Shown: piece by piece, positions 4,818 through 24,432 of the stretch
Position numbering within the stretch: the stretch's first letter is position 1
Layout of the letters: the number at the start of each line of letters is the position of its first letter
Origin: Methanosarcina horonobensis HB-1 = JCM 15518
Lineage (GTDB): Archaea; Halobacteriota; Methanosarcinia; Methanosarcinales; Methanosarcinaceae
NCBI RefSeq assembly: GCF_000970285.1
Contig: NZ_CP009516.1
Coordinates: 620,001-684,000, forward strand
Length of the DNA: 64,000 bases
Direction: 5' to 3'
Notes under the pieces: generated by a model
The model's input: the letters and a program-made list of their open reading frames with translations, nothing else
Told to the model about the DNA's origin: nothing
Database searches by the model: none
Program-made: the position numbers and the translations under genes

Positions 4818-5627
4818 TCAAAATTCCATGTATAGAGGACCAATTTCGAGTTTTTGGTTAAGATCAGTTATAGAATAGTGAGTCTCGTAATTTCCATTTT
4901 GATCGCACGATAAATAAATTTTGACGTAATAGTTCTGAACAGTTATGCTGTTGCTCTTGTATTCAAAACCATAATGGAAATTTCCCTGGGCATAAACTTC
5001 TGCAGTACTGCTGGAAGTTAGATCCTCACCTTCTTTCCAGTTAGAAATCTGCCAGAGATTAAAAGGCATATTATGTACGTACCATGAATCTATATGATAA
5101 GGCTGTACAGATTTGTGGTCATACCCAAAATATCCTTTTGTGGTGACTGTAAACAATTTCCAACCAAGGAAATTATACTCACTTACGGAATGTGTAAGAA
5201 TAGGAGTATAGTCCGGGTTCTCCAAAGACCGTGAATTCACTTCACTTTTTTCATTAGTTGATTGGATTGTACTATTGTTTACTTCTTCTTTCAAGTTATC
5301 AATTAAAAAATAACCTTGATCTGTGAAAGTTATATTTGATCCATCTTTCAGTCGATATGTCCTTGAATTATTCTCATCTGAATCAGTATCGTTCTTTTGC
5401 ATTGAAATTTTATCTTTGTTTGCTTTACAATAATTTTCAATAACATCGTCTGTGGACAAGTTTTCGGTGTTAGAGTTTAGAGCATCTATTAGACCTTGCT
5501 CAAATTCGGAAATATTTTCATTTGTTTCCAAATTTTCTTGTGCACTTACAGCTGGCACAAACACTGAGCATATAAGTAATATCGCCAAAAACAACATTTT
5601 TGTATCAGATTTTTTCTGAAAGCGCAT
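4818..5627 (-). CDS. Secreted protein of unknown function
   Basis: A 269-residue protein with a basic start and signal peptide (MLFLAILLICSVFVPAVSA, cleavage likely before QENL). An Asn/Asp/Glu-rich region follows to about residue 140, then a compact, aromatic-rich C-terminal domain with GYFGYDHKSVQPYHIDSWYV and GNFHYGFEYKSN. There is no sorting tail or lipobox, so the mature protein is probably released or held by other proteins. GGAG lies 7 bases before ATG 5627, and TATAAG in the left arm of the repeat at 5662 is well placed as promoter. It occupies the place in module B that the PGF-CTERM protein holds in module C, but the two are not recognisably related. Confidence 0.6.
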   Translation of the reverse strand: MRFQKKSDTKMLFLAILLICSVFVPAVSAQENLETNENISEFEQGLIDALNSNTENLSTDDVIENYCKANKDKISMQKNDTDSDENNSRTYRLKDGSNITFTDQGYFLIDNLKEEVNNSTIQSTNEKSEVNSRSLENPDYTPILTHSVSEYNFLGWKLFTVTTKGYFGYDHKSVQPYHIDSWYVHNMPFNLWQISNWKEGEDLTSSSTAEVYAQGNFHYGFEYKSNSITVQNYYVKIYLSCDQNGNYETHYSITDLNQKLEIGPLYMEF

Positions 5628-5661
5628 TTTAGCTCCACAAATTCCTTTTTACCTAACTCTT

Positions 5662-5780
5662 TATAAGTTTTCTGTCCATTCCATCAAACAATCACAAAAT
5701 ACGTTGGATTTATGATTTCTTTTTTTAGAAACATTACATAATAGGACGAATTGTTTGATGGTTTGGCCATAAAACTTATT
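5662..5780. repeat. Long inverted repeat B
   Basis: Arms 5662-5693 and about 5749-5780 are an imperfect inverted repeat, best in TATAAGTTTT and CCATCAAACAAT. The spacer keeps TAATAGGACGAA as in copy C. The left arm reads outward into the promoter position of the gene at 5627. The rest of the gap up to 6042 aligns by eye with 3052-3326, including CTAAAAACAGAGGTTTA near 6003. Confidence 0.7.
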
Positions 5781-6042
5781 TGTTCATGCTCAACGTAAGT
5801 GTTTTCTTCGACTCGAAAAATGAAAGATGTTATTTTTTAGAAAGATATAAACCGTTCATTTATATTCAAAAAAAATCTTACAACTCATTACAGAACAACA
5901 GGTTCGTTTTTGGCATCTTCATAGTACCTTTGAAGCTGGCTCTGTAGAAATTCTTAGTTTAGGATTCCTGCAGACCGAGATATAAACTCATTATCTCAAC
6001 CGGCTAAAAACAGAGGTTTAGCAAGTCCTCTTTAACTTCTCT

Positions 6043-21778: not shown

Positions 21779-22317
21779 ACTTGCGAATCATTTCAAAAAT
21801 CTCTCGCACAGCTGGTAGAACTATATTCCATAATTGATGGGACCGTTGAACTGAAGATATATAGGACTTACCCATTTGAACTGAAAAATGGCAAATAATA
21901 TTTTATGTACTCGATCTTCTATGTCGAGTACATCTGTCCTATGTGAAAATGTATTATCTTTAAGGCCAATCTGTACTTAATTTCTGAAAAATTATGGTCG
22001 ACTTCTTTGTTACTGAAAGATGCGAAAGCGCGGGTATTTTTCTTCCCTGCATCTTCGTTTCAGTAAGCTCCCTTCCTCGATAATACAACATAGATTCTAT
22101 TTATCTTTTGAAAATTGAACAAAAATTACCTAAAAATCAGGCTGTTTTTTTGAAATGTTAGAAAAGTTATCTGAAAAATAGTTATGTTCAATAGTTTCAG
22201 TTTTAACTTTTGTGCGGAGAGTATTTCTAACTCTCCGGCACATAAACGTTTTTGGCTTATTGGTTATACTTATTCACTGGTCCTGTAATAATATCTGATC
22301 GCAGATATTATACGACT
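21779..22317. other. Gap with stem-loops, no gene seen
   Basis: Three hairpins can be drawn: TACTCGA/TCGAGTA near 21906-21930; an imperfect pair from TTACTGAAA and AGATGC at about 22010-22065; and TGTGC-GGAGAG with CTCTCCGGCACA at about 22212-22244, the last being a plausible terminator for the convergent gene pair. No coding frame was convincing. Confidence 0.4.
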
Positions 22318-22881
22318 TCACCATTCATCTTCTTCATCATCCCACTCTTCATCGTCGTCCCATTCATTTACTTCGTCAAAGTTCCCTTCTTCATTATCCC
22401 ACTCTTCATCATCCCACTCTTCATCATCGTCCCATTCTTCATCAAAGTTCCATTCATTTACTTCGTTAAAATCCCACTCTTCATCATCGTCCCATTCATT
22501 TACTTCGTCAAAGTCCCACTCTTCATCATCGTCCCATTCATTTACTTCGTCAAAGTCCCACTCTTCATCATCGTCCCATTCATTTACTTCGTCAAAGTCC
22601 CACTCTTCATCATCCCCTTCTTCATCATCCCACTCTTGGTCATCGTCCCATTCATCATCATAGTCCCATTCATCATCATAGTCCCATTCATTGTAGTCCC
22701 ATTCATTGTAGTCCCATTCATCATAGTCCCATTCATCTTCTGAAATAAAATTCGTAGGATTTGCTGCAGGTTTTGTAATGTCATTATACGAAGCTGCTCC
22801 TACAGCAATTAAACTTGACATCATTATTACACTTAAAACACATATCAAAATTTTCATAACTGATTTTTCATTGAAATGCAT
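22318..22881 (-). CDS. Secreted Asp/Glu/Trp-repeat protein
   Basis: A 187-residue protein with a signal peptide (MKILICVLSVIMMSSLIAVG, cleavage likely after GAAS) and, from about residue 48 to the end, nothing but acidic and aromatic repeats. I count 21 Trp, each preceded by Glu (DEW, NEW, QEW or EEW). A 14-residue unit EEWDFDEVNEWDDD recurs. After Lys37 there is no Lys, Arg or His. GGAGG six bases before ATG 22881 fixes the start. The product would be a strongly negative, Trp-studded extracellular polymer; cation or polycation binding is my inference. No known domain; no partner gene adjacent. Confidence 0.75.
   Translation of the reverse strand: MHFNEKSVMKILICVLSVIMMSSLIAVGAASYNDITKPAANPTNFISEDEWDYDEWDYNEWDYNEWDYDDEWDYDDEWDDDQEWDDEEGDDEEWDFDEVNEWDDDEEWDFDEVNEWDDDEEWDFDEVNEWDDDEEWDFNEVNEWNFDEEWDDDEEWDDEEWDNEEGNFDEVNEWDDDEEWDDEEDEW
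22451..22618. repeat. 42-bp tandem repeat, four copies, inside the Asp/Glu/Trp gene
   Basis: Units start at 22451, 22493, 22535 and 22577, each close to CATTCATTTACTTCGTCAAA plus 22 more bases. The period is a multiple of three, so copy number can change without breaking the frame. Shorter, less regular trinucleotide-based repeats continue on both sides to 22342 and 22735. Confidence 0.85.
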
Positions 22882-23740
22882 TTTGTTCCTCCAAATATTC
22901 CTATTATTAATTGTCTGTTTTGATAATCTAATCTATGTTTGTCCCAAAATTCAAATAACTTCTACATTTGGATTCTGAATCTAACTTATTATATCTGATT
23001 TATCCATTTTATATGAGAAATTAAATCTTTAGATACAAAGATCAAATCTTTATATTTTTGTAATTTAATGGACAATAATGTCTTTTTTAATTCAAATATA
23101 ATAAATAATAATCAGATTGTAGATTAAAAACTAAAACTAAGGGATATTCTTGAATCATTGGTAGTATTATTTAAATCATGTCTTTTTGAAGAAAAATTAA
23201 AATTAACAAAAAAATACTTTACTTTTTTTACTAGACTTTAATATTAATTCTCTTTTTTCCTGTAGGATACCAAAATTCGATAATATCAAAACTGTAGAAT
23301 CTTACTAGAATAGAAATACTTTAACTATCAACGAAAGTGATAATACTCTTGATGGCTTTAAAATTCTAGAAACTTTAAAAAGATACGGTTTTATGAAGGT
23401 AGAAGAACTTAGATTTTATGTTAACATAAAATTTTAAAAATTGTTTTACTAGGCATATTTCTCTTGATTCTGTCCTCATCAAGGATACCTATTTCCCATG
23501 AATAATAGTTTAGGACTTACACGCTTAAGGTGCAAAGTCACAAACAATAGACATATCAAAAACAAATATCAAAAACAATAGACGCTGTAGTTAAATATAC
23601 ATTTTAGATATTTACAGGTTTAACGCGATTGATTTCTCGTCTCAATCGCGTAAGCCGTGATATACAAAGTGACTCGAAAATCGCGCATGTAAGAACTAAG
23701 CAACCTCAGGCTTCTTAATTTTATTACTAATGGAGCGCAG
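22882..23740. other. AT-rich gap ahead of the IS element
   Basis: About 860 bases, very AT-rich, no gene accepted. It holds near-repeats of ATCAAAAACAA with CAATAGAC (23545-23582) and a perfect 10-bp hairpin ACGCGATTGA/TCAATCGCGT at 23623-23651 shortly before the left end of the insertion element. Confidence 0.4.
23623..23651. repeat. Perfect 10-bp hairpin
   Basis: ACGCGATTGA pairs with TCAATCGCGT over a 9-base loop. It lies about 100 bases outside the clear left-end hairpin of the IS200-type element; it could be an older end, a terminator or unrelated. Confidence 0.5.
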
Positions 23741-24432
23741 AGGGTCACGAATACCCCGTCCTTCAGGTCGGGGATGAAGTGAACCCTCGCCTCTTCGTTT
23801 TTTCACTTTAATTATCTAAATCCTCACTTTTTTTGTAAAATAAGGTTTTTTTGGCACCATAACCAGAGGTGGTGCCAGCCACCTTTGGCTAGGATGTGAT
23901 ATAAGTTGGAATTACGCAGTTTTAGCCATGGCTATGGTCAGATTACTTACCACATCGTGTTGGTGCCTAAGTATCGATACAATATATTCTACAATAAGAG
24001 AATTAAAAAGGATTGCGAGTTGATTCTCAGTATAATTTGTGCTAAAAATGGCTACAAAATACATGCAATGGAAGTAGTAGATGATCATGTTCATTTGTTT
24101 CTTGAATTTCATCCAAGTAATTCTCTGTCAGAGGTAATTCAGTATTTGAAAGGAGGTAGTTCTTACAGCTTATTCAAGCTTCATCCTGATCTTAAAAAAC
24201 GATATTGGGGTGGAAATCTATGGTCAAGTGGAAAGTTCTATCGATCCGTTGGAAACGTAACTGCTGATACAATTAAGCATTACATTAAAGAATCGCAAGG
24301 AAAACCGAGTGAAGAGTCTCGATTGCATAGGTTCATGAGATCCAAGCAAAGAAGACTTGATGATTTCTAATTACCAGAACAACCGGGCGGGCGGCCCGAA
24401 GCATACCCCATCCTTTAGGGTGGCCGCCCGCA
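23740..24432 (+). mobile_element. IS200-type element (IS200/IS605 family, tnpA only)
   Basis: Left end: a hairpin CCCCG/CGGGG around TCCTTCAGGT at 23754-23774, followed by ATGAAG, typical of subterminal imperfect palindromes of this family. Right end: CGGGCGGCC (24388-24396) pairs with GGCCGCCCG (24422-24430), enclosing a smaller ACCC/GGGT hairpin. Only tnpA lies between. Such elements move as single strands at the replication fork without target duplication, so the exact outer borders (here approximate) cannot be fixed without an empty site. Confidence 0.7.
23906..24370 (+). CDS. tnpA: IS200-type Y1 transposase TnpA
   Basis: A single-strand DNA transposase, 154 residues, complete. The HUH pair is His61 and His63 in DDHVHLFLEF, and the DNA-attacking tyrosine is Tyr126 in DTIKHYIKES. 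The family's GGSSYSLFK and WGGNLWSSGKFYRSVG are present. The start is TTG at 23906 with GTGAT upstream; no ATG is suitably placed. Nothing suggests inactivation. Confidence 0.92.
   Translation: MELRSFSHGYGQITYHIVLVPKYRYNIFYNKRIKKDCELILSIICAKNGYKIHAMEVVDDHVHLFLEFHPSNSLSEVIQYLKGGSSYSLFKLHPDLKKRYWGGNLWSSGKFYRSVGNVTADTIKHYIKESQGKPSEESRLHRFMRSKQRRLDDF

Follow-up and report, generated by a model that had tools for sequence, protein, structure and literature searches.

A Glu-Trp repeat gene of Methanosarcina horonobensis with the conserved ends of a Methanosarcina-only family of otherwise Cys-rich secreted proteins

Secreted proteins whose repeat core can change are already known. The Borg elements of Methanoperedens encode tandem-repeat proteins with disordered, often extracellular regions, and their amino-acid repeats contain hardly any Trp, Cys, or Phe (PMC9879509). 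A model for disordered activation domains holds that acidic residues keep aromatic residues exposed (PMC10550315). The gene considered in this study recalls both. Like the Borg repeat proteins (PMC9879509), its product is archaeal, built of in-frame repeats, rapidly evolving, and probably disordered, but the gene is chromosomal, its Trp-rich product lies outside the Trp-, Cys-, and Phe-depleted Borg composition, and the likeness comes without evidence of homology. With the acidic-aromatic activation domains (PMC10550315) it shares aromatic residues set in an acidic, disordered context; those domains belong, however, to intracellular transcription factors of eukaryotes, and the likeness is one of physics only. 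What is new here is the full replacement of a Cys core by a Glu-Trp core, marked by a conserved 3' hairpin.

The gene lies in a window of 64,000 nt (the whole stretch of DNA that was analyzed) taken from the genome of M. horonobensis HB-1, a single contig of 5.02 Mb referred to below as G000. I will call it the EW gene and its product the EW protein. Its main features are as follows:

22318 to 22881, minus strand: coding sequence, beginning with ATG, of a secreted Glu-Trp repeat protein of 187 aa
22888 to 22892, minus strand: ribosome-binding site GGAGG, read directly, its position conserved in relatives
23007 to 23014, minus strand: candidate archaeal TATA box TATAAAA, spotted by eye about 130 bp upstream of the ATG
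22789 to 22881, minus strand: codons of the signal peptide, MHFNEKSVMKILICVLSVIMMSSLIAVGAAS, homologous to that of Cys-rich relatives, with the cleavage site judged by eye
22318 to 22743, minus strand: Glu-Trp array with 21 EW, a Trp occurring every 5 to 13 residues, mostly 5 to 8
22340 to 22614, minus strand: 42-bp tandem repeats, 6.4 copies of the unit DFDEVNEWDDDEEW

The predicted protein begins with a Sec-type signal peptide, which a short linker joins to an acidic tail. A preliminary description of this DNA had proposed a secreted, polyacidic protein with 21 Glu-Trp units, each Trp following a Glu, and a mature part made almost wholly of Asp, Glu, Asn, and Trp. The secretion signal and the extreme acidity are borne out, and the count proves exact: all 21 Trp directly follow Glu (19 of them directly precede Asp). 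Residues 41–187 contain 48 Asp, 41 Glu, 21 Trp, and 13 Asn, together 84%, besides 7 Phe, 5 Tyr, and 5 Val, and from residue 33 onward the protein is 58% Asp plus Glu and 13.5% Trp, with a net charge of −89 and 0 Cys. The further claim that there is no positive residue holds for the array but not for the whole mature part, which has one Lys near its N-terminus (NDITKPAAN). With composition held fixed, the probability that every Trp would follow a Glu is about 10^-13; since the repeats are not independent, this figure excludes only an accident of composition.

The repeats had been thought to permit in-frame changes of copy number, and indeed all unit lengths (15, 18, 24, and 42 bp) are multiples of three. 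The 42-bp unit, however, accounts for only about 6.4 copies (22340–22614), the rest of the array being made of 15-, 18-, and 24-bp units. Among nine units of six codons, few and related as they are, the proportion of synonymous differences (pS 0.57) exceeds that of nonsynonymous differences (pN 0.10), which suggests selection on the peptide. The strand opposite the repeats carries an open frame of 163 aa (22252–22743, plus strand; IPLFIIVPFIYFVKV), open because the sense array lacks those Leu and Ser codons whose complements are stops. An AlphaFold model of the EW protein has a signal helix and nothing else structured; made from a single sequence and of low confidence, it is weak evidence for disorder.

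Searches of Pfam, NCBIfam, PDB, and Rfam with the gene or protein gave no usable match, in keeping with the earlier impression that the pattern belongs to no described family. A sub-threshold hit to Rfam sR2 (E 0.16), which falls inside the EW repeats, was dismissed. No relative was found by direct homologue search of 84,980 species, nor was there a plasmid match. The search for EW arrays that had been recommended as a check covered 393 genomes of the phylum and found the EW core in the source genome only, with none among the other 392. A degenerate scan for such arrays across all genomes returned, among the matches listed, mostly unrelated sequences plus short, convergent acidic-Trp runs. Small proteins of Planctomycetaceae (L215, L165) and Thermoguttaceae (L180) contain long runs such as DEDDEEWDEDDDEEW. 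These and a run from an uncultured bacterium (L200) are, like the EW protein, rich in Asp and Glu with repeated EW or DW, but they are shorter or irregular, stand in other protein contexts, and have no gene ends in common with the EW gene. The acid-Trp runs of other prokaryotes, either short or irregular, belong to unrelated proteins and are apparently of independent origin.

Within the genus, a search with the EW protein found matches confined to the signal peptide, and these lie in secreted Cys-rich repeat proteins. I define here a secreted repeat family of Methanosarcina by a homologous leader and signal peptide and by a hairpin in the 3' UTR. The EW gene has the leader and signal peptide, as judged by sequence homology, and the hairpin behind its stop codon; it is therefore a member of the family. 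Its 5' end is 73–77% identical in DNA sequence to those of its five nearest relatives, and the segment behind its stop codon is 78–84% identical to the 3' flanks of G007, G023, and G025 (62% to that of G027, with no value for G010). The comparison of ends establishes it, at the level of sequence, as a diverged member of a family that is confined to Methanosarcina and combines constant ends with a hypervariable repeat core. The protein had been presented as an oddity standing alone; going by its gene ends, it belongs instead to an otherwise Cys-rich secreted repeat family, of which it is a relocated member. The literature searched, which includes only a minority of subscription journals, yielded no description of this family.

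The cores of the family differ strongly between species while the ends are conserved. All 16 other members have Cys in their cores (about 5–18%) and essentially no Trp, and in each the first mature residue is Cys, where the EW protein has Tyr (AASY at the cleavage site versus AVSC, AIAC, or AASC in relatives). With 0 mature Cys and Tyr as its first mature residue, the EW protein departs from the Cys-rich form of the family, and, having no lipobox Cys, it is not of the Sec-secreted lipoprotein type. The Cys-rich proteins encoded between cfbB and moaA (for example in G007, G025, G027, and G003) resemble it in leader, signal peptide, 3'-UTR hairpin, and a secreted, low-complexity core that is mostly acidic, but they differ in having Cys without Trp, whereas the EW protein has Trp without Cys, and in genomic position. 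The relatives carry CDC-type Cys/Asp repeats, and acidity is not universal (the G011 core has only 7% Asp plus Glu). The EW core, compared by blastn with the relatives' loci, has no nucleotide similarity to their cores, nor was any trace of an old Cys core found. A genome-wide loss of Cys was rejected as an explanation, as G000 keeps another secreted Cys-rich protein (C1:2293940). That protein (L003) and L013 represent a separate secreted, Cys-rich, low-complexity type, with a similar signal peptide and no Pfam match, which occurs also in relatives.

The second mark of the family lies downstream of the coding sequence:

22201 to 22254, minus strand: conserved 3'-UTR hairpin, GTGCCGGAGAGT-loop-ACTCTCCGCAC

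In an alignment of 14 distinct sequences, 97% of the cells are paired, with one compensatory C-G/U-A pair; support from covariation is slight because most pairs never vary. Searched with a covariance model of this hairpin, 15 of the 31 Methanosarcina genomes give a total of 17 sites, and the 155 genomes from elsewhere in the order give 0. The sole site in G000 lies behind the EW gene, and each of the 16 others lies behind a family gene. I rejected an ordinary intrinsic terminator, since no T run follows the hairpin and it is limited to the family gene. It is possible that the hairpin (in the window, G007, G003, G025, and others) is an RNA-level control element specific to that gene.

The EW gene does not occupy the family's usual (though not defining) position. 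Apart from one extra copy in G002, the 16 other members lie between cfbB and moaA, which I take, by sequence recognition, to belong to the pathways of F430 (a nickel cofactor) and molybdopterin, respectively. In G000, cfbB and moaA are adjacent, and the family gene is missing between them. The EW gene is found instead between serS and a GH15 gene, amid the following features:

21864 to 24428, no strand assigned: stretch of about 2.56 kb that holds the EW gene as well as an IS200-type transposase and has no equivalent between serS and GH15 in the relatives compared
21864 to 21890, plus strand: terminal repeat GGACTTACCCATTTGAACTGAAAAATG (GGACTTACCC...) that forms the insertion's left edge and resembles the terminal repeats of MITE-like elements scattered in the genus
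23718 to 24425, plus strand: IS200-type insertion sequence at the right edge, its ends approximate
23906 to 24370, plus strand: IS200 transposase TnpA (Y1_Tnp, E 2.6e-36)

The gap between serS and GH15 is about 180–380 bp in the genomes nearest by serS, and in some more distant genomes it reaches 2.9 kb, there without an EW gene. The left end of the IS200 element has many near-identical copies in G000. The EW gene was possibly relocated to its place beside mobile DNA by one or the other edge element. The closest sampled relative, G027 (cfbB plus serS tree, support 1.0), has a Cys-rich gene at cfbB-moaA and no insertion at serS-GH15. In a tree of the gene ends, the EW gene forms a long branch that groups with G025 and G027 at moderate support (0.78–0.85). 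The simplest account of these sequences would have both relocation and core replacement occur on the G000 branch; alternatively, the gene may descend from an older paralogue or from a transfer out of an unsampled Methanosarcina. The additional relocated member, in G002 (L282, G002:C10:532000-541500, about 5106–5888, plus strand), has a core of EEVCEETTPT repeats.

What might such a protein do? The reading I prefer, tentatively and at somewhat less than even chances, is that of a disordered acidic extracellular polymer in which the Cys stickers of the relatives have been replaced by Trp. The EW product would be located at the cell surface or in the matrix, a strongly acidic and intrinsically disordered polymer whose acidic spacers would hold the chain expanded and hydrated, with sticker side chains exposed. 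In the relatives the stickers would be Cys, forming disulfide cross-links or metal thiolates; in the EW protein, Trp would take over this part by binding surface proteins or glycans non-covalently, through aromatic and cation-pi contacts. Each step is one that I infer, from sequence to disorder, from disorder to surface location, and from there to sticker function. That Trp may play the same role as Cys is suggested by composition; the cores do not align. The narrower proposal of a natural sticker swap, from covalent or metal-binding Cys to Trp with secretion signal and 3' hairpin kept, I regard as doubtful. PF06848, the disaggregatase repeat family, was taken as a rough indicator of a matrix lifestyle; it is present in 28 of the 31 genomes and therefore fails to distinguish carriers of the family gene from non-carriers. 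In G003, a disaggregatase-related protein (PF08480; L139:3020-4993, minus strand) is encoded close to the Cys-rich repeat gene.

Other readings must be weighed against a sticker polymer. The protein may bind metal ions outside the cell, through Cys thiolates and carboxylates in the relatives and, in the EW version, through carboxylates alone (Ca, Mg, Fe, Mn), the Trp being incidental. The CDC-type repeats of the relatives and the high content of Asp and Glu in the EW protein are consistent with this, as are the usual neighbors of the family, cfbB and moaA, with their nickel cofactor and molybdopterin pathways. Yet those neighbors are unchanged in genomes without the family gene, total loss of Cys would alter metal preference completely, and the protein has no His and no fixed ligand geometry and matches none of the known metal-binding families, so that I consider metal binding fairly unlikely. 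That the exact chemistry of the core is arbitrary, the protein serving as a rapidly changing surface decoy or shield against viruses, competitors, or proteases, would suit the strong divergence of the cores between conserved ends, the patchy presence of the family, and the relocated copy in G002. The retention of Cys in all 16 other members argues that the chemistry is not arbitrary there, and the decoy seems quite unlikely.

It might be supposed that the gene has no function at all, being a translocated relic that lost its core and was refilled by replication slippage. Its long branch in the gene-end tree, mobile DNA on both sides, the loss of an otherwise invariant Cys, and an EW core without counterpart in the search of the phylum all point that way. 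But the frame has stayed open across repeats prone to slippage, all of them multiples of three, pS stands above pN among the units, and the ribosome-binding site, signal peptide, and hairpin are all intact; a relic is on these grounds unlikely. An aromatic array for electron hopping or photochemistry, finally, would make use of the short and regular spacing of Trp, but no predicted fold keeps the rings in register and the gene neighborhood offers no hint of electron transfer, making this highly improbable.

Because the cores of secreted disordered repeat proteins cannot be aligned, such proteins resist classification. The constant ends of the gene, above all a 3'-UTR hairpin unique within the order, provide a handle, and with it one sees that the chemistry of the core has changed completely between close lineages. 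If the EW product is made, it would offer a natural experiment on the sticker chemistry that an acidic extracellular polymer requires, and if the swap of stickers is true, Methanosarcina would hold a naturally evolved pair of acidic polymers, one cross-linked and the other aromatic.
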